Below are positions 1 through 19,598 of a DNA stretch of 34,889 nt, piece by piece. A program made the position numbers and the translations under genes. Source of the stretch: a virus; IMG/VR virus record IMGVR_UViG_3300019776_000257, positions 1 through 34,889 of that record, one strand, 5' to 3'. The notes beneath the pieces are model-generated. The model saw only the letters and a program-made list of their open reading frames with translations. It did no database searches and was not told the DNA's origin. Every line of letters begins with the position of its first letter. Within the stretch, counting starts at the first letter, position 1.

Positions 1-4
1 ATAA

Positions 5-94
5 CGGCGTGGGTGTTGGTACACGGGAGGGCCTTATAATCCCTTTAGCACTAGATGAGTGTTCTTGACTTGGTTCGAATCCAAGCACGCCGAC
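5..94 (+). tRNA. tRNA, anticodon UAU (Ile by codon table), with long variable arm
   Basis: The acceptor CGGCGTG pairs fully with CACGCCG, followed by A and an encoded CCA. The D-stem GTGT/ACAC and T-arm CTTGG-TTCGAAT-CCAAG are clear. The anticodon loop is CTTATAA, closed by AGGG/CCCT plus one C-U mismatch, which gives UAU. Some 24 bases form a variable stem-loop (AGCACT/AGTGTT), normal for Leu, Ser or Tyr but not Ile. The amino acid identity is therefore uncertain. Confidence 0.75.
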
Positions 95-111
95 CAATTT
101 GAGTGTATGTA

Positions 112-1191
112 ATGAAATTGAGCTATCTTGACCATCTAATGCACAATCACTACTATGAGAGTGATTACAATTATAAAGAAGGCTGGGGCAAACCAACTCA
201 AAAGTGCGACGAGGGTCTGCTGATTGACATTTGCGATTATTTCTTTGAGAGAATGCTGAAAGAAAATATCGTCAATGGTGCTGATCCTATTACATGGGGT
301 CCAATCATATCGACTCATAAAGAATATGGCATGGCTCTTGTTGAGAAGAAGATACCGCAGCTTCATGATACGCTGAGAAATATGTGTAGCTCTCCTCTTA
401 CGCGCGGCGTTTTTGGCGGAGACTTACTATACGAGTTCTACAAAAAGAACAAACATGAAAGAACAATGTTTGTTTTTGGAGTTTTTGATAAGCTAGTCTC
501 TGTGGCTGAGGCCTCTGGATTATTGCCCTGCTTCAATCCAGAAGATCCTATGTTCAAGGAGATAATGTATCAAAAGCCAGAATACTTCTTAGACTTGATT
601 GCAAAGAAGTATGCCTTTGATATCTCTGCTCCAAAATATGCAGGAGATAATCTAGGAATTGAAACTGAATATGGGCTATATAGCCAGAGAGATATGTTTG
701 CTTTAAACTTGGCGCTGATCGTAGCAGACAAGTATAAAGATAAGAACATAAGCATTTGTGAAATCGGTGGTGGTGTTGGTCATCTGGCTTTCTATCTACA
801 TAGATTAGGATATAGAAACCTGACGATTGTGGATCTGCCGACCATATCAACATTGCAGATGTATTTTCTTGGTACCAATCTCAGTAGATATAACGGTATC
901 ACGTTTATGCCTACTGATGAGTTTACTGGAAACTATGATCTGGTAATTAATGCTGATAGTTTTATTGAAATGAGTCGAGAGAGTGCCAGTCAATATCTTG
1001 ATCTAATCAAGAGAAATGCAAAGCATCTAATCTCTCTCAACCAAGAAACTGGTCCGCATCAATTTGGTCCAGCAGGATTTAGAGTCTGTGATATAACAGA
1101 CATGAAACGAGTTGCTAGGCATATGTCTTGGATCCGCAAGGGTTGGGTATATGAAGAGTATCTAGGAAATAAAGCGAGAGTGACGGAATAG
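112..1191 (+). CDS. Class I SAM-dependent methyltransferase, sugar O-methyltransferase-like
   Basis: This protein of about 359 residues has a Rossmann-type SAM-binding motif near residue 220 (CEIGGGVGHLAFYL), followed by an acidic strand (TIVDLP) expected to bind the SAM ribose. The N-terminal 200 residues do not match a domain I can name. Long two-part proteins of this kind include putative sugar O-methyltransferases, so transfer of a methyl group to a sugar is the best guess, not a certainty. I chose the ATG at 112 because a GAG lies 8 bases upstream; an in-frame GTG at 103 is the other option. It sits between two tRNA genes, and its last 18 bases overlap the 5' end of the next tRNA. It may work with the sugar genes at 10-13 kb. 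Confidence 0.7.
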   Translation: MKLSYLDHLMHNHYYESDYNYKEGWGKPTQKCDEGLLIDICDYFFERMLKENIVNGADPITWGPIISTHKEYGMALVEKKIPQLHDTLRNMCSSPLTRGVFGGDLLYEFYKKNKHERTMFVFGVFDKLVSVAEASGLLPCFNPEDPMFKEIMYQKPEYFLDLIAKKYAFDISAPKYAGDNLGIETEYGLYSQRDMFALNLALIVADKYKDKNISICEIGGGVGHLAFYLHRLGYRNLTIVDLPTISTLQMYFLGTNLSRYNGITFMPTDEFTGNYDLVINADSFIEMSRESASQYLDLIKRNAKHLISLNQETGPHQFGPAGFRVCDITDMKRVARHMSWIRKGWVYEEYLGNKARVTE

Positions 1192-1250
1192 GTATACGTA
1201 TCGGTCTCAAAAACCGAGTTCTGTGGGTTCGAGTCCCACCTTTCGCACCA
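1174..1250 (+). tRNA. tRNA-Leu (anticodon CAA) with short variable loop
   Basis: Acceptor GCGAGAG/CTTTCGC, discriminator A, CCA encoded. Anticodon arm TCGGT-CTCAAAA-ACCGA gives CAA. The D-loop (GAATAGGTAT) is Leu-like, but the variable region is only 5 bases where Leu tRNAs normally carry a long arm. The 5' end lies inside the end of the preceding coding region. Confidence 0.88.
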
Positions 1251-1269
1251 AAAAATATTTTCACAAGAC

Positions 1270-1300
1270 TTGACAATCTAAGTTCCTTGTGATATAAATA
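1270..1300 (+). promoter_or_regulatory. Strong sigma70-type promoter with late-promoter-like -10
   Basis: TTGACA (1270-1275), a 17-base spacer and TATAAA (1293-1298). The -10 region reads TATAAATA, which is also the T4 late-promoter consensus, so it could be used by both host polymerase and a phage late factor. Transcription would start near 1307. Confidence 0.7.
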
Positions 1301-1325
1301 GAATACAAATTAAGAGAAAACGGAA

Positions 1326-1409
1326 ATGAAACAGCAATATTGCCAGATTACAAATAATCAACCAAAAGGTCGCCCATCATGGGCCGACAATAGGGGTGCT
1401 GTGCATTAA
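1326..1409 (+). CDS. Possible 27-residue peptide
   Basis: An ATG at 1326 opens a 27-codon frame (starting MKQQYCQITNN) that ends in TAA at 1407-1409, just before the terminator. The upstream GAGAAAACGGAA is only a weak ribosome site. The frame overlaps a stable hairpin, which argues for an RNA role or for control of this frame. I do not recognise the peptide. The position, alone between a strong promoter and a strong terminator, is the only support. Confidence 0.3.
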   Translation: MKQQYCQITNNQPKGRPSWADNRGAVH

Positions 1410-1433
1410 GTCTTGTTACAGACTTAGATTCTC

Positions 1434-1470
1434 AGAACCCCGAGGCGAAAGTTTCGGGGTTCTTCTTTTT
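1434..1470 (+). terminator. Rho-independent terminator
   Basis: A perfect 10-bp stem (AGAACCCCGA with TCGGGGTTCT, 1434-1443 and 1454-1463) with a 10-base loop is followed by a T-rich run (TTCTTTTT). It separates the short transcript from the main tRNA array. Confidence 0.9.
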
Positions 1471-1513
1471 CTAGATATGCAAAAACTGAATAGCTGCTAT
1501 GCAAAAACAAACA

Positions 1514-1542
1514 TTGAAAAAGACACTAGCAGACATTATATC
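1514..1542 (+). promoter_or_regulatory. Sigma70-type promoter for the tRNA array
   Basis: TTGAAA (1514-1519), 17 bases, TATATC (1537-1542), directly after the terminator and ahead of a long run of tRNA genes without coding sequence. The -10 is imperfect. Confidence 0.5.
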
Positions 1543-1650
1543 TAGTATGTAAGAGATTGAAAAGAGTTTCCCAGCCGCGCGGGCAAGATAGACGCGGTCG
1601 CTGATTGACATTGTTAAGTTCCTGACCTGAGTAAGTCTGTAAACTGCTCA
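1543..1650 (+). other. Non-coding leader of the tRNA array
   Basis: No gene seen. It contains an imperfect hairpin in which CAGC plus CCGCG (from 1572) can pair with CGCGG plus GCTG (to about 1603). It may be the processed 5' leader of the tRNA transcript. Confidence 0.4.
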
Positions 1651-1786
1651 TTCTCATTTCGTCAGAGGTCACTAGTAGGTGGCCACCGCGAAAAGCTAAC
1701 ATTAGTGTAGTGGAAGCACGGCCCTTGACGGGGCAGGCACAAGTTCGAATCTTGTATGTGAAGTGTGACCTCTGACGAAATGAGAA
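1651..1786 (+). repeat. 22-bp perfect inverted repeat enclosing a degenerate tRNA-like sequence
   Basis: Bases 1651-1672 are exactly complementary to 1765-1786. The 92 bases between hold a D-arm-like stretch (AGTGTAGTGGAAGCAC) and a perfect T-arm (ACAAG-TTCGAAT-CTTGT, 1739-1755), but only about 4 acceptor pairs and a 6-base anticodon loop (GCCC-TTGACG-GGGC). No CCA follows. A 10-base palindrome GGTGGCCACC lies at 1678-1687. Confidence 0.85.
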
Positions 1787-1792
1787 ATATAT

Positions 1793-1869
1793 TCTGGTGA
1801 ACTGTCCTAGGTGGAGAGGCGTGACTGTTAATCACGATGCGGTGGGTTCGAATCCTACCACCAGAGCCA
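1793..1869 (+). tRNA. tRNA-Asn (anticodon GUU)
   Basis: Acceptor TCTGGTG/CACCAGA, discriminator G, CCA encoded. Anticodon arm CGTGA-CTGTTAA-TCACG. T-arm GTGGG-TTCGAAT-CCTAC. Confidence 0.95.
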
Positions 1870-1874
1870 ATAAT

Positions 1875-1949
1875 GCGGGTGTAGCTCAGTGGTAGAGCGT
1901 CACGTTGCCAACGTGAATGTCGTGGGTTCGAACCCCATCTCCCGCTCCA
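1875..1949 (+). tRNA. tRNA-Gly (anticodon GCC)
   Basis: Acceptor starts GCGGGTG and ends CCCGC-T-CCA. Anticodon arm TCACG-TTGCCAA-CGTGA. The D-arm (TAGCTCAGTGGTAGAGC) is canonical. Confidence 0.95.
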
Positions 1950-1955
1950 ATTAAT

Positions 1956-2030
1956 GAACCACTAGCATAATGGTAGTGCATCGGACTCTTAATCCGTAAG
2001 GTCGGGATTCGACTTCCCGGTGGTTCTCCA
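1956..2030 (+). tRNA. tRNA-Lys (anticodon CUU)
   Basis: Acceptor GAACCAC/GTGGTTC, CCA encoded. Anticodon arm TCGGA-CTCTTAA-TCCGT. The discriminator is T, unusual for Lys, so charging identity is slightly uncertain. Confidence 0.9.
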
Positions 2031-2036
2031 ATAAAT

Positions 2037-2110
2037 GGTCTTGTAGTGAATGGATATCACACCTCTCTGTCTAAGAGGAGAAGCGAGTTTGAGCCTCGCC
2101 AAGATCGCCA
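2037..2110 (+). tRNA. tRNA-Asp (anticodon GUC)
   Basis: Acceptor GGTCTTG/CAAGATC, discriminator G, CCA encoded. Anticodon arm CCTCT-CTGTCTA-AGAGG. Confidence 0.94.
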
Positions 2111-2183
2111 ATTAGTGCGCCGAGCATCCTTCGGGATACGTTGGGTAGAGTTGACGGCACTCTCGCAGCACGAAAGCCGTTAT

Positions 2184-2260
2184 CGGAGTGTAGCGCAGTC
2201 TGGTAGCGCATCTGCTTTGGGAGCAGAGGGTCCTGGGTTCGAATCCTAGTACTCCGACCA
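2184..2260 (+). tRNA. tRNA-Pro (anticodon UGG)
   Basis: Acceptor CGGAGTG/TACTCCG, discriminator A, CCA encoded. Anticodon arm TCTGC-TTTGGGA-GCAGA. D-arm canonical. The 73-base spacer before it holds a UUCG-capped hairpin near 2125 but no gene. Confidence 0.95.
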
Positions 2261-2311
2261 GTTGGATAAGTTGTGGGTATACTCATTTAGGAACCCTCGC
2301 CTAATTCATAA

Positions 2312-2390
2312 CAGTGTGTGGGGAAGTCTGGCCGTTCCCACCTGCCTTGGAAGCAGGGGCTCGCTGGTTCAAATCCAGCTACACTGACCA
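2312..2390 (+). tRNA. tRNA, anticodon UGG (second Pro-type) with unusual D-arm
   Basis: Acceptor CAGTGTG/TACACTG, discriminator A, CCA encoded. Anticodon arm CCTGC-CTTGGAA-GCAGG places UGG at the anticodon. T-arm GCTGG-TTCAAAT-CCAGC. The D-arm has a GGGA/TCCC stem and an 11-base loop, unlike the other Pro tRNA in the array, so the true identity may differ. Confidence 0.8.
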
Positions 2391-2488
2391 ATTCGTAATA
2401 GTAATTGGACCTATCCCGGGAATGATAACAATGCTATTACAATAATGGCCCCGCGAAGAGGCTAGATAATATCTTCGCGCCTATTAAT
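2391..2488 (+). other. Structured tRNA-array spacer
   Basis: No gene seen. It contains two stems: GTAATAG/CTATTAC (2396-2402 with 2434-2440) and a perfect 8-bp CGCGAAGA/TCTTCGCG (2452-2459 with 2472-2479). Confidence 0.5.
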
Positions 2489-2563
2489 ATCAGTGTGGTG
2501 TAGTGGTAACATGCCGGTCTCCAAAACCGTGCGTCTAGGGTTCGAATCCTTACACTGGTGCCA
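2489..2563 (+). tRNA. tRNA-Trp (anticodon CCA)
   Basis: Acceptor ATCAGTG/CACTGGT, discriminator G, CCA encoded. Anticodon loop CTCCAAA gives CCA. T-arm TAGGG-TTCGAAT-CCTTA. Confidence 0.9.
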
Positions 2564-2691
2564 GTTATCTCGCTTTCTAGATAAGCGAGAGAGGCCCAAT
2601 CGGGATAACATGAGGGGAATACCCGTAAACGTAGGACTTGCTTACCTCTTCAGATCAATGGGCTGAACCTACGGGGCGTACAGAATATCGC
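2564..2691 (+). other. Structured spacer without a recognised gene
   Basis: The stretch can form CTCGCTT/AAGCGAG near its start and CGTAGG/CCTACG around a 35-base interior. Neither a tRNA nor a reading frame with a ribosome site is evident. Confidence 0.4.
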
Positions 2692-2720
2692 TTGACTTTG
2701 CCTTCTTCCTCGTCTATGAT
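2692..2720 (+). promoter_or_regulatory. Sigma70-type promoter
   Basis: TTGACT (2692-2697), 17 bases, TATGAT (2715-2720). Transcription would begin near 2727, giving a short leader to the small gene at 2745 and then the tRNAs beyond. Confidence 0.75.
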
Positions 2721-2744
2721 ATAACAACAATGACGAGGAAGATA

Positions 2745-2960
2745 ATGGGTAAAGTAACACGAAAACAGATTGAAGCTTTGCAGAATGATTTCATCAAAGC
2801 TGGCATTATGCGTGATCCTAATTCGTATAGTGCTGAAGAGTTGAAGCAACTTAATCCAAATATACCGCACTGGTTCATTGATGACCATGTTGCTGTTCGT
2901 GATGGCAAGAAAGCAAAGAGTGATTATAAACGGATCAAGATTGATCTAGACAAGATTTAA
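2745..2960 (+). CDS. Small basic protein of unknown function
   Basis: This 71-residue protein is lysine-rich and has no signal peptide or membrane segment. Its sequence (MGKVTRKQIEALQNDF at the start) suggests a short helical N-terminus and a basic C-terminus; I recognise no family. I chose the ATG at 2745 because GAGGA lies 6 bases upstream. The in-frame ATG at 2730 would leave a leader of only about 3 bases from the promoter at 2692-2720. It is the first gene after a strong host-type promoter, so it is probably expressed early, together with the tRNA-Ala that follows 7 bases later. A role in host takeover is possible but unsupported. Confidence 0.75.
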   Translation: MGKVTRKQIEALQNDFIKAGIMRDPNSYSAEELKQLNPNIPHWFIDDHVAVRDGKKAKSDYKRIKIDLDKI

Positions 2961-2967
2961 GAATAAC

Positions 2968-3042
2968 GGGCCCTTAGTGATAATGGGAGCACAACGCCTT
3001 TGCACGGCGTGGGTAAGAGTTCGATTCTCTTAGGGTCCACCA
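2968..3042 (+). tRNA. tRNA-Ala (anticodon UGC)
   Basis: Acceptor GGGCCCT/AGGGTCC, discriminator A, CCA encoded. Anticodon arm ACGCC-TTTGCAC-GGCGT. Confidence 0.93.
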
Positions 3043-3129
3043 AATTGGCGCCTTCAAAAGCCCATCGTAGGTCTGACTAACCTGTATCGCTAATCAATAC
3101 GGCATACAAAATAAGTCAACTCTTTAAGT

Positions 3130-3259
3130 AGAGTATAGACAGGGGGATAGGCATTAGGCTACTATCTTCCCTACTGATTTTAAGTCAAAGGGGAATACAC
3201 GGCTTATTATCAGGCGATAGAGTGGGTGCGATGCTCACATATCCTCCGGTCTATACTCT
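3130..3259 (+). ncRNA. tRNA-like RNA enclosed by a long imperfect stem
   Basis: Bases 3130-3149 pair with 3240-3259 over 20 positions with one mismatch and one G-U. Inside are a T-arm (GTGGG-TGCGATG-CTCAC, 3222-3238) and an anticodon-like hairpin with a 7-base loop TTTTAAG closed by TGA/TCA. The inner 7 bp of the stem (GGGGGAT/ATCCTCC) can serve as an acceptor, but G and T follow instead of CCA. The sequence before it (3043-3129) shows no gene. Confidence 0.6.
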
Positions 3260-3271
3260 ATAATACAGTTT

Positions 3272-3362
3272 GGGTGACGCAAGTAAGGATGCCTGGTGGC
3301 ATCGGCCGGCTGTAAACCGCCTCCCTAGTGGCAAGAAGTTCGATTCTGTCCGTCACCCACCA
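3272..3362 (+). tRNA. tRNA-Tyr (anticodon GUA)
   Basis: Acceptor GGGTGAC/GTCACCC, discriminator A, CCA encoded. Anticodon loop CTGTAAA. A long variable arm (about 18 bases) fits a bacterial Tyr tRNA. Confidence 0.94.
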
Positions 3363-3366
3363 ATTT

Positions 3367-3440
3367 GATCTGACTACGGAGTGTAACAACCCGTCATGAA
3401 TGTCAGACAGTCAGTCGAATAACTGTGAGACTGACACCAA
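3367..3440 (+). other. Two spacer hairpins, the second ending in ACCA
   Basis: TCTGAC pairs with GTCAGA around a 27-base loop. Then GTCAGTC pairs with GACTGAC over a 12-base loop and is followed at once by ACCA. The second resembles an acceptor minihelix. No gene is seen. Confidence 0.4.
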
Positions 3441-3444
3441 ATAC

Positions 3445-3518
3445 TGGCTTGTAGCTCAATGGTAGAGTAGGCGCTTGATAGGCGTTTGACGAGGGTTCGA
3501 TTCCCTACTGGCCAACCA
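3445..3518 (+). tRNA. tRNA-Ile (anticodon GAU)
   Basis: Acceptor TGGCTTG/CTGGCCA with one T-T mismatch, discriminator A, CCA encoded. Anticodon arm GGCGC-TTGATAG-GCGTT with two G-U pairs. D-arm canonical. Confidence 0.88.
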
Positions 3519-3523
3519 ATCAT

Positions 3524-3590
3524 CAAGGGTTTCTGACGAATGCAGATGCGCGCCTGTAAAATGGGGTTTGATTCCCTGTTCCCTTGGCCA
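3524..3590 (+). tRNA. Degenerate tRNA-like element with CCA end
   Basis: Acceptor CAAGGG/CCCTTG, discriminator G and CCA are present, with a D-arm (CTG/CAG) and a T-arm-like GGGG-TTTGATT-CCCT. The total is only 67 bases. The loop-like CTGTAAA has no pairing anticodon stem. It is probably a decayed or non-decoding tRNA. Confidence 0.5.
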
Positions 3591-3596
3591 ATTCAT

Positions 3597-3670
3597 TGGA
3601 AGATCGTCTAATGGTAGGACGGCGGCCTTTGACTCCGCGAATCTAGGTTCGATCCCTAGTCTTCCAGCCA
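3597..3670 (+). tRNA. tRNA-Gln (anticodon UUG)
   Basis: Acceptor TGGAAGA/TCTTCCA, discriminator G, CCA encoded. Anticodon loop CTTTGAC, with a C-T mismatch at the top of the stem GCGGC/TCCGC. Confidence 0.93.
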
Positions 3671-3727
3671 ATTTTTTGATGTTGTATAGCATATAGTCCA
3701 TAGATGAAGCCGCACTACAAAGTATAC

Positions 3728-3810
3728 GGACTGGTTACCGTAGTGGCGAACGGCGCGGACTTTTAATCCGCTATACAACACCGTGGGTTCGAGTCCCACC
3801 CAGTCCTCCA
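3728..3810 (+). tRNA. tRNA-Lys (anticodon UUU) with enlarged variable loop
   Basis: Acceptor GGACTGG/CCAGTCC, CCA encoded. Anticodon arm GCGGA-CTTTTAA-TCCGC. T-arm GTGGG-TTCGAGT-CCCAC. The variable loop has 11 bases, and 3770-3780, covering it, is complementary over 11 bp to 3680-3690 in the leader. Confidence 0.9.
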
Positions 3811-3816
3811 ATACAA

Positions 3817-3891
3817 GGCGCATTAGTTTAGTGGTTAGAATGCTGGGCTTTCAATCCGGAGAGAAGGGTTCAATTCCCTTATGCGCTGCCA
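3817..3891 (+). tRNA. tRNA-Glu (anticodon UUC)
   Basis: Acceptor GGCGCAT/ATGCGCT, discriminator G, CCA encoded. Anticodon arm CTGGG-CTTTCAA-TCCGG. T-arm AAGGG-TTCAATT-CCCTT. Confidence 0.93.
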
Positions 3892-3905
3892 ATCAAAGAG
3901 GTAAT

Positions 3906-4037
3906 ATGTTTAAGCTTACGTCACTATCACTAGCAGGTGCAAACTCTCTTGTTAAACAGTATAAGAGATTTGGCTTCAAGCATATATCTACAAAATACGA
4001 CAATAAGAAAGAAGTGTATATTCATACGTTCAAGTAG
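3906..4037 (+). CDS. Small basic protein of unknown function
   Basis: This 43-residue frame begins MFKLTSLSLAGANS and ends with basic and aromatic residues (KKEVYIHTF). AGAGGT lies 8 bases before the ATG, a good ribosome site, and the frame fills the gap between two tRNA genes exactly: its stop at 4035-4037 is one base before the next tRNA. I do not recognise it. The N-terminus is mildly hydrophobic but too short for a confident signal peptide. Confidence 0.6.
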   Translation: MFKLTSLSLAGANSLVKQYKRFGFKHISTKYDNKKEVYIHTFK

Positions 4038-4038
4038 T

Positions 4039-4114
4039 GCGGGATAGAGAAGCGGTCTATCTCACCGGCCTCATAAGTCGGAGATCGTGCGGTTCGAATC
4101 CCACTCCCGCAACA
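4039..4114 (+). tRNA. tRNA-Met (anticodon CAU) lacking an encoded CCA
   Basis: Acceptor GCGGGAT/CTCCCGC with one mismatch. Anticodon arm CCGGC-CTCATAA-GTCGG. The 3' end reads A-ACA instead of A-CCA, and the T-stem has a bulged C (GTG-C-GG with CCCAC). It could be elongator Met, or Ile if lysidine is made at C34. Confidence 0.82.
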
Positions 4115-4116
4115 TC

Positions 4117-4169
4117 GAAGTCCTCAGGATACTAAATAGTTTGTAAACCCTATTGTATCCTGAGGCTTC
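4117..4169 (+). promoter_or_regulatory. Hairpin hiding the GIY-YIG ribosome site, with a late promoter in its loop
   Basis: CCTCAGGATAC (4122-4132) pairs perfectly with GTATCCTGAGG (4155-4165), extended by GAAG/CTTC. The only Shine-Dalgarno, GAGG at 4162-4165, lies in the 3' arm, 7 bases before the ATG. The loop contains CTAAATA (4132-4138), a late-promoter-like box; a transcript starting near 4147 would lack the 5' arm and leave the site free. Confidence 0.7.
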
Positions 4170-4172
4170 CTA

Positions 4173-4718
4173 ATGTTCTATACTATTTACAAAACAACCA
4201 ATCTTGTGAATGGAAAGTTCTACATCGGTAAGCACAAGACCAAAGACTTGGACGATGGATACATGGGATCAGGCAAAATATTGAAACATGCCATCTCCAA
4301 GTATGGTCTTGATAACTTTCACAAAGAAATTCTTCACATATGCGAATCTGAAAAACAGATGAACGCACTAGAGAAGATTTTGGTTGTGCCTGACATAGAA
4401 ATGAACTATAATCTGTGTGACGGCGGTAAAGGTGGTTTCGGATACATAAACGCCAATCAAGAGATAGTGGCTAGACGAGACGCAAGAGAAAACAAGATAG
4501 CGGGCCGTTTGGCAGCCAATGCTAAAGGTGCCCATATCAAAGGTTCGCAAAAACATTCTCAACTGTTGAAAACTGATCCAGAATATAGAGAAAAGTATCT
4601 GGCTAAATTATGTGAAGCGCAAAGGATAGCCGAAAGAAAAGATTGTCCTTATTGTGAAATGAAAAATCTGAATGTCGGCAACTACAAACGACATTTGAAA
4701 GCAAAACACCAATTCTGA
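4173..4718 (+). CDS. GIY-YIG endonuclease with C-terminal C2H2 zinc finger (Seg/I-TevI type)
   Basis: This 181-residue protein starts with the GIY-YIG nuclease signature: YTIYK at 3-7 and FYIG at 16-19, with conserved GSGK and a later Asn/Glu region. The C-terminus has a zinc finger with Cys158, Cys161, His174 and His179, likely to bind DNA. Free-standing nucleases of this family cut DNA lacking the gene and spread by repair, and are frequent between T4-type genes. Here it sits between two tRNA clusters with no intron evidence. A hairpin covers its ribosome site (4117-4169), the type of control known for T4 I-TevI. The stop codon lies within the 5' arm of the following tRNA-like element. Confidence 0.92.
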   Translation: MFYTIYKTTNLVNGKFYIGKHKTKDLDDGYMGSGKILKHAISKYGLDNFHKEILHICESEKQMNALEKILVVPDIEMNYNLCDGGKGGFGYINANQEIVARRDARENKIAGRLAANAKGAHIKGSQKHSQLLKTDPEYREKYLAKLCEAQRIAERKDCPYCEMKNLNVGNYKRHLKAKHQF

Positions 4719-4795
4719 CTGTCCGTAAGGAGGGAGGTCCCCCGCAGCGCCGCGATAAACGGCTGTTCGCTGAACACCTGTCGGTCAGAATACCA
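4712..4795 (+). tRNA. Non-canonical tRNA-like element with long acceptor and CCA
   Basis: ATTCTGAC (4712-4719) pairs with GTCAGAAT (4784-4791), and the helix continues through a G-U and a G-C. A discriminator A and CCA follow. Interior hairpins (GGGAGGTCCC, GCCG/CGGC around 4752-4762, GTTC-GCT-GAAC) do not match D, anticodon or T arms; no TTCRANY T-loop exists. It overlaps the end of the GIY-YIG gene. Confidence 0.45.
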
Positions 4796-4801
4796 ATAAA
4801 T

Positions 4802-4878
4802 GGAGTCGTAGCAAAACGGTTCAATGCGCGGGACTGCAAATCCTTGAGGTGATGGTTCAAATCCATTCGACTCCTCCA
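4802..4878 (+). tRNA. tRNA-Cys (anticodon GCA)
   Basis: Acceptor GGAGTCG/CGACTCC, discriminator T, CCA encoded. Anticodon loop CTGCAAA. Confidence 0.92.
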
Positions 4879-4884
4879 ATTCAG

Positions 4885-4945
4885 TTTAGGTGAAGATGTA
4901 GAATGCGCCTGCCCGAAAGTCTTCTAATGGAGTGGCGCCCAACCT
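4885..4945 (+). other. Structured spacer closed by a 7-bp stem
   Basis: TTTAGGT pairs with ACCTAAA across about 50 bases that include GAAGA/TCTTC and GCGCC/GGCGC pairings. No CCA, T-loop or reading frame is seen. Confidence 0.35.
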
Positions 4946-4953
4946 AAATTCAT

Positions 4954-5027
4954 GCTGCATTAGTTCAATGGTAGAACGCTGGTTTGTGGAGCCAGTTACA
5001 GTAGTTCGATTCTACTATGCAGTGCCA
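4954..5027 (+). tRNA. tRNA-His (anticodon GUG)
   Basis: Acceptor GCTGCAT/ATGCAGT, CCA encoded. Anticodon arm CTGGT-TTGTGGA-GCCAG. The usual G at -1 is not encoded. Confidence 0.9.
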
Positions 5028-5063
5028 TTTGCTGAAGTAAACGAGATACCTGCGCCACGATTG

Positions 5064-5150
5064 GTGGACAGACTCCTAGAAAAGCGTGAAGCTAACGCCA
5101 GACTTAGAGTTAAACGTTACAACGGCCGTACGTTTAGGAGTATGATATGA
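5064..5150 (+). CDS. Possible 28-residue basic peptide
   Basis: An open frame after tRNA-His encodes a strongly basic peptide (ending GRTFRSMI) whose stop codon overlaps the next start as ATGA, the usual form of translational coupling. The start is unclear: GTG at 5064 or TTG at 5061, neither with a ribosome site. It could equally be a non-coding leader. Confidence 0.25.
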   Translation: MDRLLEKREANARLRVKRYNGRTFRSMI

Positions 5151-5374
5151 CACTATATCTAATTGCAGGTAAAAGCGGACCCAACAGGTCTGTTTCACTA
5201 TATCATACTAACAAACATCTACAAAATTTTCATTCTAACATAGAAGAAGAAGTTGATAAGGTATATTCATCAAATATCGCGGCAGGCATTTATGTTGCCC
5301 AACGCGGCTATCAGAATGGTTATGATGAAATAGGTTTTGTAGTATTACACATTAAAGATGCCGCTATCGTCTAG
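5147..5374 (+). CDS. Small protein of unknown function
   Basis: A 75-residue protein preceded by TTTAGGAG, a strong ribosome site 7 bases before ATG 5147. No signal peptide or membrane segment is seen; alternating hydrophobic stretches (GFVVLHIKD) suggest a small beta-rich fold. I recognise no family. Its last 15 bases overlap the 5' acceptor of the following tRNA-Glu, so mRNA and tRNA cannot both be processed intact from one transcript at that point. Lying inside the array, it is likely co-transcribed with the tRNAs. Confidence 0.75.
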   Translation: MTLYLIAGKSGPNRSVSLYHTNKHLQNFHSNIEEEVDKVYSSNIAAGIYVAQRGYQNGYDEIGFVVLHIKDAAIV

Positions 5375-5436
5375 ATTGGATAGGACGCCGCCCTCTCAAG
5401 GTGGTAGCACGGGTTTGAGTCCCGTTAGCGGTGCCA
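5360..5436 (+). tRNA. tRNA-Glu (anticodon CUC)
   Basis: Acceptor GCCGCTA/TAGCGGT, discriminator G, CCA encoded. Anticodon arm CCGCC-CTCTCAA-GGTGG. The 5' end overlaps the coding region before it. Confidence 0.93.
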
Positions 5437-5441
5437 ATTAT

Positions 5442-5502
5442 GGGCTGGCAGTAAGAAGGTCTATCGCGCGTGATGTGGGTTCGATTCCCACCCAGTCCAC
5501 CA
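5442..5502 (+). tRNA. Truncated tRNA-like element: acceptor and T-arm with CCA, no anticodon arm
   Basis: GGGCTGG pairs with CCAGTCC across all 7 positions (one G-U), with A and CCA following. The T-arm GTGGG-TTCGATT-CCCAC is perfect. Only 26 bases separate acceptor and T-stem, too few for D plus anticodon arms; ATC/GAT is the only pairing. It is 61 bases in all. Confidence 0.6.
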
Positions 5503-5505
5503 TAT

Positions 5506-5579
5506 TGCTCAATCGTCTAACGGTAGGACACCTGACTCTGACTCAGGGTATTGTGGTTCGAATCCATGTTGAGCAGCCA
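5506..5579 (+). tRNA. tRNA-Gln (anticodon CUG)
   Basis: Acceptor TGCTCAA/TTGAGCA, discriminator G, CCA encoded. Anticodon arm CCTGA-CTCTGAC-TCAGG. Confidence 0.95.
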
Positions 5580-5639
5580 AATTCGTAGGCAACTGCGAAT
5601 TGACAATGCAACTTCAGCATTGTTACCACTATCATGAAT

Positions 5640-5731
5640 GCATCCGTATCCCCCTTGGCTACGAACCAGGAGAAAGGTAACTGGAAATGGTTGAAAGACT
5701 AATGCAGGTTCGAATCCTGTCGGGTGCTCCA
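5640..5731 (+). tRNA. Atypical tRNA-like element with CCA; anticodon unclear
   Basis: Acceptor GCATCCG/CGGGTGC, discriminator T, CCA and a perfect T-arm GCAGG-TTCGAAT-CCTGT. At 92 bases it has the length of a long-variable-arm tRNA, and GGTT-GAAA-GACT could be that arm. One hairpin, CTTGG-CTACGAA-CCAGG, would give ACG (Arg) but leaves only 7 bases for a D-arm. I cannot fix the anticodon. Confidence 0.5.
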
Positions 5732-5752
5732 TGATATTCAAAGGAAAATCTA

Positions 5753-6121
5753 ATGAAGGTATTACTAACTGCTTTGACCGCAGCATTTTTGATAACTGCG
5801 GCGTTTCTACCTAGTCATGCGTCTACAATGAAAGCATCATGGTATGACTGTGCAACTCCCGGACAATGTTCCAAGAGTAAGCGTACAGCTAATGGTGAGC
5901 GTTTCAATCCAAACGCATTGACAGCAGCACATAAATCATTACCCTTTGGTACACGATTGAAGGTGACCCACAAAGGTCGTTCTATCATCGTGAGGATTAA
6001 TGATCGTGGCCCATTTGTAAAGGGAAGGCATTTAGACCTTTCCCGTGCCGCAGCCCGTAGCATCGGTTGCCATGGAGTCTGCGTTGTGCAAGTTCAAGTT
6101 TTAGGCAAAAAGAAGTCTTGA
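5753..6121 (+). CDS. RlpA-like secreted double-psi beta-barrel protein (first copy)
   Basis: This 122-residue protein has a signal peptide (about 1-23, ending PSHA) and then one double-psi beta-barrel domain (residues 28-118) of the RlpA family. The family motifs are clear: [26 protein letters not shown] and INDRGPF. His60 and Asp84 match the residues needed for lytic transglycosylase activity in active RlpA, so it may cleave peptidoglycan glycan strands in the periplasm. It lacks the SPOR domain of host RlpA. Four cysteines (33, 39 and two near GCHGVC) could form disulphides. AAGGA precedes the ATG. A paralogue lies at 13427. Roles in lysis, or in remodelling the wall during infection, are both possible. 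Confidence 0.88.
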
Positions 6122-6146
6122 CACTTGCACTAAAATAGTATACTAT
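6118..6146 (+). promoter_or_regulatory. Sigma70-type promoter overlapping the RlpA-like stop codon
   Basis: TTGACA (6118-6123), 17 bases, TACTAT (6141-6146). It would drive tRNA-Ser and the three or four genes after it. The leader to 6277 has only an 11-codon frame and a short hairpin (AGTGG/CCACT). Confidence 0.8.
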
Positions 6147-6277
6147 ATACACATGATGAGAATAGCGGTAAGCAAGGTATTCGTGTAAGAGGTTTGTGAG
6201 TGGACTGTGTGTACTGGAAACTCTCGCATATCATAAAAGTGGAGGGCGTAACCACTATAAGAAATCGCATCGATATT

Positions 6278-6367
6278 GGAAGTGTGGCCGAGAGGCTTAA
6301 GGCGCCAGTCTTGAAAACTGGAGGGCCCGCAAGGGTTCCGTGGGTTCGAATCCTACCGCTTCCGCCA
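6278..6367 (+). tRNA. tRNA-Ser (anticodon UGA)
   Basis: Starts GGAAGTG, ends CGCTTCC-G-CCA. Anticodon arm CCAGT-CTTGAAA-ACTGG. A long variable arm (GGGCCCGCAAGGGTTCC) is present. Confidence 0.95.
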
Positions 6368-6389
6368 CTTTTAACTTAGGAAAAGTCCA

Positions 6390-6884
6390 ATGATTAGAAA
6401 GCAATTAAACATCGAAGAAGTCAAGGCATTCATCAATGCACAGACACCAGAAACAAAAGTATATCTAGGTGGTGACTCCGAACGCTTTCAGATTGACGGT
6501 GTTTGGTATGCTGACTACATCAACGTTGTCGTTGTTCACAAGAACGGCAAGAACGGTTGTCGCGTGTTTGGTGGTATCGTGCGTGAGCGCGACTATGACC
6601 AGCAAAAGGACAAGCCACGTATGCGTCTGATGAACGAAGTCATGAAGACTGCACAGCTTTACATGGACTTGTATGATGTGCTTGAGGATCGTGAAACTGA
6701 AATACATCTTGACATTAACCCAAATAAAGAGTATGGTAGTTCATGTGTCATCAATGAAGCAGTTGGATATATTCGTGGTATGTGTAACATCGTTCCGCTT
6801 GTGAAGCCAAATGCTTGGGCTGCTTCTTACTGCGCTGATAGATACAAGGACGCTATTCAACATATTGAACATAAGGTAGCTTAA
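6390..6884 (+). CDS. RNase H-like nuclease family protein (DUF458-like)
   Basis: A 164-residue cytosolic protein resembling predicted RNase H-fold nucleases. An early strand ends in Asp (KVYLGGDSERF), followed by paired strands (YINVVVVHKNGKNGCRVFGG), an acidic helix, a second acidic strand (EIHLDINP) and a late aspartate (CADRYKDA). These are the usual positions of metal-binding acids. Such proteins are thought to act on RNA or RNA-DNA hybrids; no substrate can be read here. AGGAAAA lies ahead of the ATG. It follows tRNA-Ser by 22 bases and the next gene begins one base after its stop, so the three are probably co-transcribed from the promoter at 6118. Confidence 0.65.
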   Translation: MIRKQLNIEEVKAFINAQTPETKVYLGGDSERFQIDGVWYADYINVVVVHKNGKNGCRVFGGIVRERDYDQQKDKPRMRLMNEVMKTAQLYMDLYDVLEDRETEIHLDINPNKEYGSSCVINEAVGYIRGMCNIVPLVKPNAWAASYCADRYKDAIQHIEHKVA

Positions 6885-6885
6885 A

Positions 6886-7311
6886 ATGGCAAAGTTTCTT
6901 GTTATGGTTTGTGTCGTGATTGCCGCAATCTTTATGATTGTCACTGGTGCAAAAGCAGAAGTGTTTATCACGATTGATAAGTCTACTCAGCAAATGTATG
7001 TCGAAACGCCTACCGATTCATACGTGTGGAAAGTTTCGACTGGGCGAAAGGGCTATCGTACACCCACTGGAGAGTTCAAGCCTTATCTTCTGAAGACTAT
7101 GCACTATTCGCGCAAGTATGATAATGCTCCGATGCCTCACTCTATCTTCTTTCATGGTGGTTATGCTATTCATGCTACAAATGCAGTAAACAAGCTTGGT
7201 GCACCAGCTTCTCACGGTTGCATTCGGCTTAGTCCTCAAAATGCTCGTTGGCTTTATCGTATTGTAAACGAGTATGGCAAGGAAGATACATATATCAGGA
7301 TCGTTGAGTAA
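6886..7311 (+). CDS. L,D-transpeptidase (YkuD family), secreted
   Basis: This 141-residue protein has a signal peptide (1-24, ending GAKA) and a YkuD domain. The catalytic motif is complete: HGGYAIH at 90-96 and SHGCIRL at 109-115, with Cys112 as the nucleophile and His110 and His96 in support; TPTGEF (59-64) is also conserved. In bacteria these enzymes form 3-3 peptidoglycan cross-links or attach proteins to the wall in the periplasm. A phage copy could change the host wall during infection, for example to block superinfection or delay lysis (inference). It starts one base after the preceding stop and lies beside another secreted gene. Confidence 0.92.
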   Translation: MAKFLVMVCVVIAAIFMIVTGAKAEVFITIDKSTQQMYVETPTDSYVWKVSTGRKGYRTPTGEFKPYLLKTMHYSRKYDNAPMPHSIFFHGGYAIHATNAVNKLGAPASHGCIRLSPQNARWLYRIVNEYGKEDTYIRIVE

Positions 7312-7321
7312 AGGACATATC

Positions 7322-7831
7322 ATGATTAGAAAGACATTGATTGCCGCGGCTGCTGCTATCGCACTCTTAGCAACTCCCGCATATGCTTTGACACAGTTTT
7401 ATGACTGGAGTTCTGGGCAGTGGAGAATTGAAGGTTACTACGGCAAAAAGGAATTCTGTTCAGCAAAGACATATTGGGACAATGGTTCTTATGTCTCACT
7501 ATTTAACATGAGAGGTTCGGATATCTTTTCTCTTTATGTTCACAATGTAGCTTGGGACATGGCTGGCGACTATGGTGCATACTATGACGGTATAATCTCA
7601 TTTGACGGTCGTGCTGGTAGCGGTGGTGGACCAATGTCTTTTGAGTTGAAGGATCCACAGACAATTATCATTCGTAATCTTACCAATGACTTTTTGCGGA
7701 ACTGGATTGAGTTCCGAGAAATGACTATCATAATGCCGAATGGTATTTCTGATATGCGTGTCGGTCTTGTAGGTACTGCTGACGCTGTTAATGCTTTTGC
7801 AAATTGCATTGATATGTTGAACGGCAATTAA
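7322..7831 (+). CDS. Secreted protein of unknown function
   Basis: A 169-residue protein with a textbook signal peptide (1-22, MIRKTLIAAAAAIALLATPAYA cut after AYA). The mature part is rich in aromatic residues and Gly and has two cysteines, in a pattern that suggests a beta-sandwich. I recognise no family. AAAGGA stands 8 bases before ATG 7322; an upstream in-frame ATG at 7274 would destroy the signal peptide, so 7322 is preferred. It follows the L,D-transpeptidase by 10 bases and is probably made with it, acting in the periplasm. Confidence 0.8.
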   Translation: MIRKTLIAAAAAIALLATPAYALTQFYDWSSGQWRIEGYYGKKEFCSAKTYWDNGSYVSLFNMRGSDIFSLYVHNVAWDMAGDYGAYYDGIISFDGRAGSGGGPMSFELKDPQTIIIRNLTNDFLRNWIEFREMTIIMPNGISDMRVGLVGTADAVNAFANCIDMLNGN

Positions 7832-7838
7832 CATAACA

Positions 7839-7928
7839 GGAAGGTTGGCCGAGAGGCCGAAGGCACCTCACTGCTAACGAGGCGTACTAGCGATAGTACC
7901 GTGGGTTCGAATCCCACACCTTCCGCCA
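7839..7928 (+). tRNA. tRNA-Ser (anticodon GCU)
   Basis: Acceptor GGAAGGT/ACCTTCC, discriminator G, CCA encoded. Anticodon loop CTGCTAA. A long variable arm is present. Confidence 0.94.
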
Positions 7929-7935
7929 TTTTTAT

Positions 7936-7997
7936 GTGGGTGCATCGCCAACAAGCTTGATGGCTGCTAAGTCGAGTAGTGCCTCCAGCCCACACCA
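7936..7997 (+). tRNA. Short tRNA-like element with CCA
   Basis: GTGGGT pairs with GCCCAC (6 bp, one G-U), then A and CCA. Inside, CATC/GATG forms a stem and CTGCTAA recurs without a matching stem. No T-loop is seen. It is 62 bases long. Confidence 0.4.
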
Positions 7998-8016
7998 ACA
8001 CATTAGGAGAAAACAA

Positions 8017-8163
8017 ATGAGTAAGGATTGTGGCTGCGGCCGTTCACCAACTGGTAAGTGTATTGGTTGGCACAACTTGACAAACGAGCAATATTCTGCT
8101 AAACTACAAGAATACAATAAGCAACAATTAACGGAATCAGCTCCGCAACTGCTGAGAGATTAA
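8017..8163 (+). CDS. Small cysteine-rich protein (CxCGRSPTGxCxGWH motif)
   Basis: A 48-residue protein starting MSKDCGCGRSPTGKCIGWHN. Three cysteines and one histidine lie within 15 residues, in a pattern that recalls CDGSH-type iron-sulphur or zinc sites, though it does not match the CDGSH consensus. Short bacterial proteins with this motif exist, but I know of no assigned function. TTAGGAGA lies ahead of the ATG. It ends two bases before tRNA-Phe, so the transcript must be processed there. Confidence 0.75.
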   Translation: MSKDCGCGRSPTGKCIGWHNLTNEQYSAKLQEYNKQQLTESAPQLLRD

Positions 8164-8165
8164 AA

Positions 8166-8241
8166 GCTGCCTTGGTATAGCTGGTGCGTACATACGCCTG
8201 AAGAGCGTGGGGACTCTGTTCGATTCAGAGAGGCAGCACCA
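8166..8241 (+). tRNA. tRNA-Phe (anticodon GAA)
   Basis: Acceptor GCTGCCT/AGGCAGC, discriminator A, CCA encoded. Anticodon arm TACGC-CTGAAGA-GCGTG. Confidence 0.94.
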
Positions 8242-8277
8242 ATGCCAGCGGCATGGCTATTAGTCGCCGCCTCCAAC

Positions 8278-8337
8278 GCTGCCACGGGGAAAGGGTCTAC
8301 GATATCGAAAGATACTTAACAGTAGACGGCAGCACCA
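8278..8337 (+). ncRNA. Minihelix-like RNA with ACCA end
   Basis: GCTGCC (8278-8283) pairs with GGCAGC (8328-8333), followed by ACCA. Directly against it, GTCTAC (8295-8300) pairs with GTAGAC (8322-8327), which would stack on the first helix as a T-arm does on an acceptor. A TATC-GAAA-GATA hairpin caps it. No anticodon arm is present. GCTGCC could also pair with the 3' strand of the preceding tRNA-Phe. Confidence 0.45.
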
Positions 8338-8342
8338 ATAAT

Positions 8343-8418
8343 GCCGCTGGGACGGTATTGGAAATCGTGCGCGCCTCATAAGCGCGATAACCCAGTTCGA
8401 AACTTGGCAGCGGCACCA
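8343..8418 (+). tRNA. tRNA-Met (anticodon CAU), or Ile if modified
   Basis: Acceptor GCCGCTG/CAGCGGC, discriminator A, CCA encoded. Anticodon arm CGCGC-CTCATAA-GCGCG. It lacks initiator features. With another CAU tRNA at 4039, one of the two may be the lysidine-modified AUA reader. Confidence 0.92.
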
Positions 8419-8429
8419 AATTAGAAATG

Positions 8430-8625
8430 CTGACTCCGACGGGAGTTGGCCGAGTGCAAGGAAATGGCTGGACGCAAAGACCGGCTAACTTGGCTAGATG
8501 TTGTGGTGACCCAGTGTGACTAACGAGAGTTAGAGACGTTGCGCCTCACACCAAGAGGATCTAGGCTGTCGCGTTGAACAGGTATCTGTGCCGTGACTTG
8601 TGGGTGTACCCGAATCCCACCTCAC
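8430..8625 (+). ncRNA. Large structured non-coding region, possible ncRNA
   Basis: No reading frame. It holds hairpins ACTCC-GACG-GGAGT (8433-8446), GCTGG/CCGGC with loop ACGCAAAGA (8467-8485), CTAAC-GAGA-GTTAG (8520-8533) inside GTGTGA/TCACAC, a long-range CTAGAT/ATCTAG (8494-8499 with 8559-8564) and a T-arm-like GTGGG/CCCAC with an enlarged loop (8600-8620). The D-arm-like TTGGCCGAGTGCAAGG suggests descent from a Ser-type tRNA. Confidence 0.4.
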
Positions 8626-8643
8626 CTTATTAATTTTTAGCGA

Positions 8644-8650
8644 ATAAATA
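8644..8650 (+). promoter_or_regulatory. Late-promoter-like ATAAATA
   Basis: ATAAATA lies 36 bases before the small membrane gene and is followed by a CGGTC/GACCG hairpin. It matches the late box repeated at other gene starts here. Confidence 0.5.
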
Positions 8651-8685
8651 GTACACGGTCAATCAAGACCGAATGAGGTACTAAT

Positions 8686-8859
8686 ATGCTAAACACACTA
8701 GTCGTTTTAGTTTTAGTTGCAGCCGTTCTTTGGGTCGTTTGGACTCTATGGAAGAATGGTTGGGATATGAAGAAGGCAGGCGCTGCTCTTGTAGCTGCTG
8801 TAGCTGCTTGGTGGTTGTGGGTCTCTGACTCAATCACTTCATTGACTTCAGGTTTGTAA
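8686..8859 (+). CDS. Small two-segment membrane protein
   Basis: A 57-residue protein. Residues 3-22 form a hydrophobic segment rich in Val, Leu and Trp; a short Lys-containing turn follows, then a second Ala/Trp-rich segment at about 31-46. GAGG lies 7 bases before ATG. No family recognised. Small hairpin membrane proteins of this size in phages include holin-like and superinfection-exclusion proteins, but the lysis genes seem to be at 28 kb. A late-promoter-like box stands upstream. Confidence 0.75.
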   Translation: MLNTLVVLVLVAAVLWVVWTLWKNGWDMKKAGAALVAAVAAWWLWVSDSITSLTSGL

Positions 8860-8875
8860 TTCAGAAACCGCCGTT

Positions 8876-8963
8876 GGCCCGTGGCGGTATATAAGTCGGC
8901 TCACCGTAAGGGGGCTGGGTAAAATAGTTCGGATTCCAAGCCGTACTCGCTAACGGGCCGCCA
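8876..8963 (+). tRNA. Non-canonical tRNA-like element with perfect acceptor and CCA
   Basis: GGCCCGT pairs perfectly with ACGGGCC (8953-8959), then G and CCA. At 88 bases it is as long as a class II tRNA, but no T-arm can form next to the acceptor. Internal stems are CGG/CCG and GGCTGG/CCaAGCC. The anticodon cannot be read. Confidence 0.5.
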
Positions 8964-8970
8964 GATTTAT

Positions 8971-9045
8971 AGCCGATTAGTTCACTGGCAGAACACCTCG
9001 TTTACACCGAGGGTGTAGGGAGTTCGATTCTCTCATCGGCTACCA
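8971..9045 (+). tRNA. tRNA-Val (anticodon UAC)
   Basis: Acceptor AGCCGAT/ATCGGCT, discriminator A, CCA encoded. Anticodon arm CCTCG-TTTACAC-CGAGG. Confidence 0.95.
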
Positions 9046-9062
9046 TTTTTAGAAAGAGTAAT

Positions 9063-9236
9063 ATGGAAAGTCATAAAAGGTCAATCGTCAAGTCTATTAC
9101 TTGGCGTATCATTGCAACACTGATTGCTGCTTACTGGGTTGGCTTTCACATTGCTATTCTAATGAATATAGTCCAAACCATTGCATATTACTTCCACGAA
9201 AGATTGTGGGTGCATGTGAAATGGGGAAAAGAATAA
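9063..9236 (+). CDS. DUF2061-like small membrane protein
   Basis: A 57-residue protein with the features of the DUF2061 family: a basic N-terminus (MESHKRSIVKSITWR), a hydrophobic stretch with TxxAAYWVG, a second one, and the ending YYFHERLWVHVKWG. The family is a predicted inner-membrane protein of unknown function found in bacteria, so this copy probably came from a host. AAAGAG lies ahead of ATG 9063. It ends two bases before tRNA-Leu. Confidence 0.85.
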   Translation: MESHKRSIVKSITWRIIATLIAAYWVGFHIAILMNIVQTIAYYFHERLWVHVKWGKE

Positions 9237-9238
9237 AA

Positions 9239-9320
9239 GCGAGTATGGTGAAATGGCAGACACGCTAGTCTTAGGAACTAGTGCTTCGGCGTGGGGGTTC
9301 AAGTCCCTCTACTCGCACCA
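9239..9320 (+). tRNA. tRNA-Leu (anticodon UAG)
   Basis: Starts GCGAGTA, ends TACTCGC-A-CCA. Anticodon arm CTAGT-CTTAGGA-ACTAG. It has a normal long variable arm (TGCTTCGGCG). Confidence 0.95.
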
Positions 9321-9325
9321 TTAAT

Positions 9326-9399
9326 GCCTCTATAGTATAGTGGTAGAACAGCCCTTTGGTAGGGGGCTGGCTCCAGTTCGATTCTGGATAGAGGCACCA
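9326..9399 (+). tRNA. tRNA-Thr (anticodon GGU)
   Basis: Acceptor GCCTCTA/TAGAGGC, discriminator A, CCA encoded. Anticodon arm GCCCT-TTGGTAG-GGGGC. Confidence 0.92.
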
Positions 9400-9405
9400 G
9401 ATAAC

Positions 9406-9479
9406 GCCCGCTTAGTTAAGTGGCATAACATCGGTTTTGTAATCCGAGGTTGGGGGTTCGATTCCCTCAGCGGGCACCA
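9406..9479 (+). tRNA. tRNA-Thr (anticodon UGU)
   Basis: Acceptor GCCCGCT/AGCGGGC, discriminator A, CCA encoded. Anticodon loop TTTGTAA. Last tRNA of the array. Confidence 0.94.
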
Positions 9480-9496
9480 TTTTTAGGAACTTGATA

Positions 9497-9838
9497 ATGC
9501 GTATACTTGTATGCGGCGGCCGCGACTTCTCAGACTCCAATCTTGTCTCAACAGTTCTCAACGAATATCAACCTCACAATCCAACAATCATTCACGGTGC
9601 CGCTAAAGGCGCAGACAGTCTAGCCAACTATTGGGCATATGAAAATGACTGTGATGTTATAGCATATCCGGCCAATTGGGATAAGTATGGTAAGAGAGCT
9701 GGATACATTCGCAATACTCAAATGCTCAACGAAGGCAAACCAGATTTGGTAATTGCTTTTCCGGGTGGTAAAGGCACTCAGATGATGATTAACTTGGCCG
9801 AAGCGGCTAACGTGCCAGTGATAAGGATAAATGATTAA
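9497..9838 (+). CDS. DUF2493/YspA-like SLOG-family protein
   Basis: This 113-residue protein shows the DUF2493 pattern: MRILVCGGRDF at the start, IIHGAAKGADSLA near residue 33, the PANWDKYGKRAG segment near 58, and LVIAFPGGKGTQMMINLA near 88. It is a one-domain Rossmann-like fold of the SLOG superfamily, whose members bind nucleotides or nucleotide-derived ligands. The function is unknown, though SLOG proteins often serve as ligand sensors in defence or stress systems. ATG 9497 is chosen because AGGA lies 8 bases before it; TTG 9491 is in frame. The next gene starts within its stop (TAATG), showing coupling. Confidence 0.9.
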   Translation: MRILVCGGRDFSDSNLVSTVLNEYQPHNPTIIHGAAKGADSLANYWAYENDCDVIAYPANWDKYGKRAGYIRNTQMLNEGKPDLVIAFPGGKGTQMMINLAEAANVPVIRIND

Positions 9839-13426: not shown

Positions 13427-13768
13427 ATGAAATTACTAATAACTTTGCTTACTGGACTATTTCTTTTTGTTAGTCCAGCACACTCAACCATTGCCTCTTG
13501 GTACGATTGTGCCAAGCCAGGAGAATGCAGCAGAAGTAAGAGAACTGCAAATGGTGAGAAGTTTAATCCGAACGCTTTAACAGCAGCACATAAGACACTG
13601 CCGTTCGGCACAAAAGTAAAAGTGACACACAAGGGTAGATCGGTAATAGTTCGTATTAATGACCGAGGCCCATTCATTAAAGGCAGACATATTGATTTAT
13701 CAAGAGCCGCGGCCCGAAAGATTGGTTGTCATGGCGTTTGCAAAGTCACAATGAAAGTGATTCGCTAA
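13427..13768 (+). CDS. RlpA-like secreted double-psi beta-barrel protein (second copy)
   Basis: At 113 residues this is a close paralogue of the protein at 5753: a signal peptide (about 1-20, ending PAHS) followed by [26 protein letters not shown] and INDRGPF, with His55 and Asp79 as the expected catalytic pair. The barrel is almost the same in sequence but the DNA differs in codon choice and the signal peptide is distinct, so duplication is not recent. The ATG lies 8 bases after the methyltransferase stop. It may act on peptidoglycan in the periplasm; why two copies are kept is unknown. Confidence 0.88.
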
Positions 13769-19554: not shown

Positions 19555-19558
19555 AATA

Positions 19559-19565
19559 CTAAATA
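19559..19565 (+). promoter_or_regulatory. Late-promoter-like CTAAATA before the 1135-residue gene
   Basis: CTAAATA lies 34 bases before ATG 19599; GAGGGA follows as ribosome site. Confidence 0.55.
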
Positions 19566-19598
19566 CCTCTATAAGTTAACATTCCTATAGAGGGAATA

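Follow-up and report, generated by a model that had tools for sequence, protein, structure and literature searches.

A putative SegB-like homing cassette with a ribosome-site hairpin and an embedded late promoter at the CCA end of a phage tRNA-Met gene

The GIY-YIG nuclease gene in the tRNA array of a phage DNA fragment (IMG/VR virus record IMGVR_UViG_3300019776_000257, positions 1 to 34,889; this 34,889-nt stretch, a 34.9-kb fragment, is the whole of the DNA analyzed and is called the window) is, with high probability, part of a homing cassette of the SegB kind that sits at the CCA end of a tRNA-Met gene, is silenced by a hairpin in read-through RNA and is made late. The parts of the cassette (Table 1) would be the hairpin, within which a T4-type late promoter would lie, a Shine-Dalgarno (SD) sequence and the ORF. 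In RNA that reads through from the tRNAs, the leader would fold and pair the SD, and the nuclease would not be made. Late in infection, an RNA polymerase of the gp55 type would start inside the hairpin and yield an mRNA in which the ribosome site would be free because the 5' arm is missing, and the nuclease would then be made during DNA replication, when recombination could copy the cassette. As gene and leader move together, the cassette would bring its own silencer into any tRNA operon in which it is inserted. Judged from the sequence, the switch itself is of a known kind (I-TevI, T4 segB, and Aeh1 mobE) and not new; the larger result, missed in the preliminary description, is what appears to be a mobile cassette that carries its own silencer and occupies the CCA ends of tRNA genes.

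Table 1. Features of the cassette and its tRNA neighbor (window coordinates).
Feature	Position	Strand	Basis and remarks
tRNA-Met(cat), maybe tRNA-Ile2	4038..4112	+	ARAGORN/Rfam; discriminator A4112; 3' end A-CA-T, not A-CCA
Cassette 5' junction CATC	4113..4116	+	stands in for the CCA of the empty site ACCCGCAACCA-ATTC (L220/L221)
Hairpin 5' arm	4117..4132	+	GAAG (4117-4120)-T-CCTCAGGATAC (4122-4132); fold z -6.4, compensatory changes; missing from the predicted late transcript
Putative T4-type late promoter ACTAAATA	4131..4138	+	sequence match; 2 mismatches to TATAAATA; predicted +1 ~4145
Hairpin 3' arm	4155..4169	+	GTATCCTGAGG (4155-4165)-CTTC (4166-4169)
Shine-Dalgarno TGAGG	4161..4165	+	predicted wholly paired in read-through RNA
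SegB/SegE-like GIY-YIG homing endonuclease, 181 aa	4173..4718	+	phrog_314, Pfam SegE_GIY-YIG, relatives, junction

The nuclease gene and its leader hairpin

The nuclease ORF, which lies intact in a window with 28 ARAGORN tRNA calls, matched phrog_314 (E 6e-37) and the Pfam family SegE_GIY-YIG (31.4 bits, above the cut-off), and the GIY-YIG residues Y3, Y6, Y17, and G19 are invariant among its relatives. These matches bear out the preliminary description of this DNA, in which the gene had been called a free-standing GIY-YIG nuclease in a tRNA array. An Rfam search of positions 1-9600 found no group I intron that would make this an intron-encoded endonuclease.

The RNA of positions 4117-4169 is predicted to fold into a hairpin (GAAG-U-CCUCAGGAUAC paired with GUAUCCUGAGG-CUUC, MFE -25 kcal/mol) with a z-score of -6.4 against 200 dinucleotide shuffles, none of which folded as well. 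Of the approximately 38 annotated ORF starts that the window contains, that of ORF 2745 alone has a fold as extreme, and the next are 30091 and 8686. The perfect 11-bp stem reported earlier is present at 4122-4132/4155-4165, but its extent had been understated: 4 further base pairs make it a 15-bp stem with one bulge, and within the loop a weak pairing of AAUAG (4135-4139) with CUAUU (4150-4154) is predicted. The sole SD of the nuclease gene sits in the 3' arm, 7 nt before the ATG at 4173, as expected from the earlier claim that the stem hides the only ribosome site, and its predicted probability of being unpaired is 0.000 in the read-through RNA. In the modelled late RNA this probability rises to approximately 0.53 (range about 0.5 to 0.6), while that of the start codon is 0.05 in a long fold, where it pairs with downstream coding sequence, and 0.72 in a short fold. 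A reading of the hairpin as a transcription terminator was rejected, as the stem is not followed by a T run and is missing from the output of the terminator scan.

The late promoter match at the border of stem and loop

The preliminary description had placed the motif CTAAATA in the loop. The motif does lie in the hairpin (4132-4138), but at the border of stem and loop, with C4132 as the last stem base. From this position, a T4-type late transcript would begin downstream of the 5' arm and be without it, so that the promoter match fits the late transcript lacking this arm that had been proposed. To judge whether such promoters operate in this phage, we considered the late sigma factor and the placement of the motif. 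A 136-kb relative (G001), in which the array order and the stem are identical to those of the window and the primase is 75% identical, encodes gp55 (E 4.7e-55); a search for gp55 in the 34.9-kb window fragment found none. Since the number of [AC]TAAATA sites in the window is not above Markov expectation and their placement alone is enriched, we used placement relative to anagrams as promoter evidence: on the + strand, 8 of the 10 sites lie 20 to 62 nt before an ORF, compared with 49 of 477 anagram words (Fisher p 8e-7). Because of the gp55 gene of the relative and this placement, T4-type late promoters, those with CTAAATA (13764, 19558) included, are very likely in use in the window phage.

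The promoter of the cassette may nevertheless be weak or decaying in the window lineage because ACTAAATA has two mismatches to the consensus and three close relatives carry the still weaker ACTATATA at this place, whereas the consensus TATAAATA is found elsewhere, with L003/L036, L088, and L133 having it at the equivalent position. These differences would also be expected if the window copy were a decaying cassette with an intact hairpin and a weakened promoter, its gene simply silent in the window phage. We regard this as unlikely, as the nuclease ORF is intact and CTAAATA occurs also 32 nt before ORF 13796 and 41 nt before ORF 19599, which suggests that the variant functions in this phage.

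Other leaders in the window have similar features. At 8643-8686, RNA from the predicted +1 of a late promoter match would be without the 5' arm of the hairpin that covers the ribosome site (ORF 8686, z approximately -4), and another late promoter match with a likewise arranged ribosome-site hairpin (CCTCTATA/TATAGAGG, weak) lies at 19558-19599. In the leader of ORF 2745 (71 aa, unknown), the SD lies inside a perfect 11-bp hairpin (2692-2745, z -6.45), the 5' arm of which is within the 17-bp spacer of a sigma-70 promoter match (TTGACT-17-TATGAT); RNA made from this promoter would begin in the loop and lack the arm. By its sequence this leader, the design of which is also kept in L204 and L205, is the same switch in a host-promoter version.

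Known switches and the hairpin family

In phage T4, the ribosome-site hairpin of I-TevI forms only on upstream-initiated RNA and contains the late promoter (PMC2988022), and segB and, in Aeh1, mobE have an anatomy like that of the I-TevI switch (PMC2988022; PMC3014915). The window leader shares with I-TevI the ribosome-site hairpin with the late promoter inside, but I-TevI is encoded in the td intron and the window nuclease has no group I intron. The I-TevI-type control proposed in the preliminary description is supported as a design, although its nearest precedent is T4 segB. This free-standing GIY-YIG gene of the Seg family belongs to a tRNA cluster and immediately follows a tRNA that lacks CCA; its late motif CATAAATA lies in a hairpin, which we saw directly, that pairs with the ribosome site and the start codon. 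The T4 hairpin is short, occludes the start codon and has the SD near the loop, whereas in the window the SD is in the 15-bp stem and the start codon outside it; the tRNA isotype and the phage lineage differ too. Between the T4 and RB33 segB hairpins, the outer pair changes from A-T to G-C. Aeh1 mobE is also a free-standing nuclease gene with a hairpin sequestering the ribosome-binding site and a late promoter (PMC2988022), but it belongs to the HNH family and lies in the nrd operon, not among tRNAs. The leader of the T4 lysozyme gene e is likewise folded shut in early RNA and open in late RNA (PMC3014915), in this case for a lysis function and not in a mobile gene.

To see how far the design extends, we collected 149 leaders in wider searches, which were reduced to 76 by removing those at least 80% identical. 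The late motif was found with at most 2 mismatches in 58 of the 76 and with at most 1 in 52, usually as the consensus TATAAATA, and in 53 the region upstream of the predicted +1 forms at least 6 bp with the ribosome site; 18 of the 76 have no recognizable late motif, and a strong hairpin is missing in about half. The mean number of these pairs is 13.3 in HEG leaders compared with 5.2 in motif-preserving shuffles, and 7.5 compared with 5.6 for non-HEG genes with late motifs. A z-score below -3 was obtained for 37/76 HEG leaders versus 11/88 other late-promoter ORFs, and modelled SD accessibility averages 0.55 for RNA that begins at the late promoter, up from 0.22. The 3' arm usually extends to the SD or the start codon, with the late promoter at the border of 5' arm and loop, and some members (L051, L089, L093, and T4 segB) have the start codon itself buried. 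By sequence comparison, the combination of hairpin and late promoter is a design that recurs in most of the 76 dereplicated relatives and in T4 segB.

An alternative is that the hairpin serves the tRNA-Met as a 3'-processing or stability element (a signal for RNase E, III, or Z, or an exonuclease block), the hiding of the ribosome site being a side effect. The hairpin starts just 4 nt past the discriminator base of a CCA-less tRNA, and T4 segB RNA is processed by RNase E (PMC2988022). However, the hairpin tracks the nuclease gene: orthologous tRNAs without the gene keep their CCA and have no hairpin. Close relatives bear the window's hairpin, and an exact-arm pattern search of IMG/VR for the hairpin without the gene returned 8 contigs, all already known gene carriers. 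Processing also leaves unexplained the usual reach of the 3' arm and the position of the promoter described above, and we consider this reading improbable.

Compensatory changes in the stem argue for its proposed silencing role as RNA. Four homologous hairpins that share the loop GTAAACCCTATT are each paired at 15 of 15 positions despite double changes at 13 of the 15 pairs, while arms cross-matched between them pair at merely 6 to 12 of 15; the covariation among relatives that the preliminary description had named as a check is thus found. Pairs were counted along the helix and not from the MAFFT leader alignment because the aligned arms shift by one column between homologues. In the family at large, the 5' arms of 43 hairpins have a median identity of 33%, each with its own complement. 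A role of the inverted repeat as DNA, as an operator of the nuclease or as an end at which the mobile element recombines, is highly improbable. I-TevI does repress its own late promoter by binding an operator over it (PMC2988022), and the mobile unit has the repeat at its 5' end; but a binding site would conserve its sequence, these arms diverge with complementarity kept, and no matching repeat is present at the 3' end. Because compensatory change is seen across dozens of distinct cassettes, the I-TevI/segB timing switch appears to be a portable module under selection and not a T4 curiosity.

Four related cassettes (L054, L060, L068, and L100) occur in one 178.6-kb phage contig (IMGVR_UViG_3300010234_000001), and late motifs and leader pairing are also found with two ORFs that are HNH-like by motif (L055 386, MHHIIPEHAGG; L113 2711, VHHIVPIHAGG).

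Insertion at the CCA end of tRNA genes

All but one of the 27 typed window tRNAs encode the CCA; the exception is the tRNA-Met before the cassette. The same holds beyond the window: none of the 32 tRNAs directly before strong-hairpin cassettes encodes CCA (30 end in N-CA), compared with 291 of 331 other tRNAs. These tRNAs span many isotypes, and in related arrays, where the cassette follows Met, Glu, Trp, or Asp, individual tRNA ends are found both empty and occupied. The Trp end is occupied in L008 (GGTGC/ATTGAAG, the slash marking the junction) and empty in L009 (GGTGCCA/ATAACGG). Reciprocally, the Asp end is occupied in L009 (GGTCGC/ATTGAAG) and empty in L008 (GGTCGCCA/ATTCTAAAG), and ATTCTAAAG resumes 3' of the L009 ORF and supplies its stop. 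L007 and the window form such a pair for the Glu end. The window's own tRNA-Met site is empty in L220 and L221 (CCCGCAACCA-ATTC or -AACT), and the last codons and stop of the nuclease ORF (CAA TTC TGA, in CACCAATTCTGA) resemble the empty-site flank CCAATTC. The junction type of the window recurs in L003, L004, L007, L008, and L009. The likeness to segB extends to empty CCA sites, which we found for the T4 allele in Dhakavirus QL01 (GGGTCA/TATTTTG in T4 and GGGTCACCAACTACGTCCCGC in QL01, with ACGTCCCGC resuming after segB) and for the RB33 allele in UFV09 (GGGCCA/TATTTTGG and GGGCCACCAAATTAAGG, respectively).

T6 SegB cuts within tRNA genes at the motif RAWTSGAAC, and an association with tRNAs without isotype preference is reported (PMC13096335). 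We read the reverse complement of this motif, GTTCSAWTY, as the consensus of the T-arm. Such a target would account for cassettes entering different isotypes at one fixed position, and the window nuclease probably cleaves at the tRNA T-arm, which all isotypes share. The words CCA and hairpin are absent from the text of that paper, and in the literature that we covered, which does not include the original segB paper, we found no description of hairpin and gene as a portable cassette at tRNA CCA ends.

We think it likely that genes of the SegB type make up a widespread class of mobile cassettes that silence themselves and that target, specifically, the CCA end of phage tRNA genes of nearly every isotype. 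On insertion, they would displace the encoded CCA, and each would carry a late promoter and a hairpin whose sequence keeps changing but is always self-complementary. Loss of the CCA would destroy the target and make the tRNA a substrate for 3' cleavage of the RNase BN/Z type plus CCA addition, separating the tRNA from the nuclease mRNA. This would be a concrete rule of insertion, at the CCA end of whichever tRNA, that accounts for CCA-less tRNA genes in T4-like arrays; the T4 tRNA-Ile would have lost its CCA to the landing of segB. As a testable reason for the switch, it would keep ribosomes off tRNA precursors: several ORFs run into the next tRNA (that of L007 into tRNA-Met and that of L008 into tRNA-Ala), so that early translation would put ribosomes on the precursors. 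The harm would parallel the impaired splicing that early translation causes in the td intron (PMC2988022). SegB has recently been tied to escape from tRNA-cutting defences (PMC13096335), and its timing and landing site therefore bear on that escape.

In the Mosigviruses G53 and SA79RD (L199 945-985, L203 1050-1085), a T4-type tRNA-Ile is without CCA and without segB (GGGTCATATATTC), possibly as the scar of a lost cassette. In the window, the spacer after the nuclease gene (4711-4800) contains a closing stem (TTCTGAC/GTCAGAA) followed by ACCA, as in a degenerate tRNA or a small RNA; as a tRNA, this 84-nt spacer was rejected because it has no Rfam match. Two similar secreted RlpA-like proteins are encoded at 5753-6121 and 13427-13768, one of them within the tRNA array. 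Also inside the array, positions 8432-8628 match the Rfam manA RNA motif RF01745 (57.7 bits, gathering threshold 55.2).
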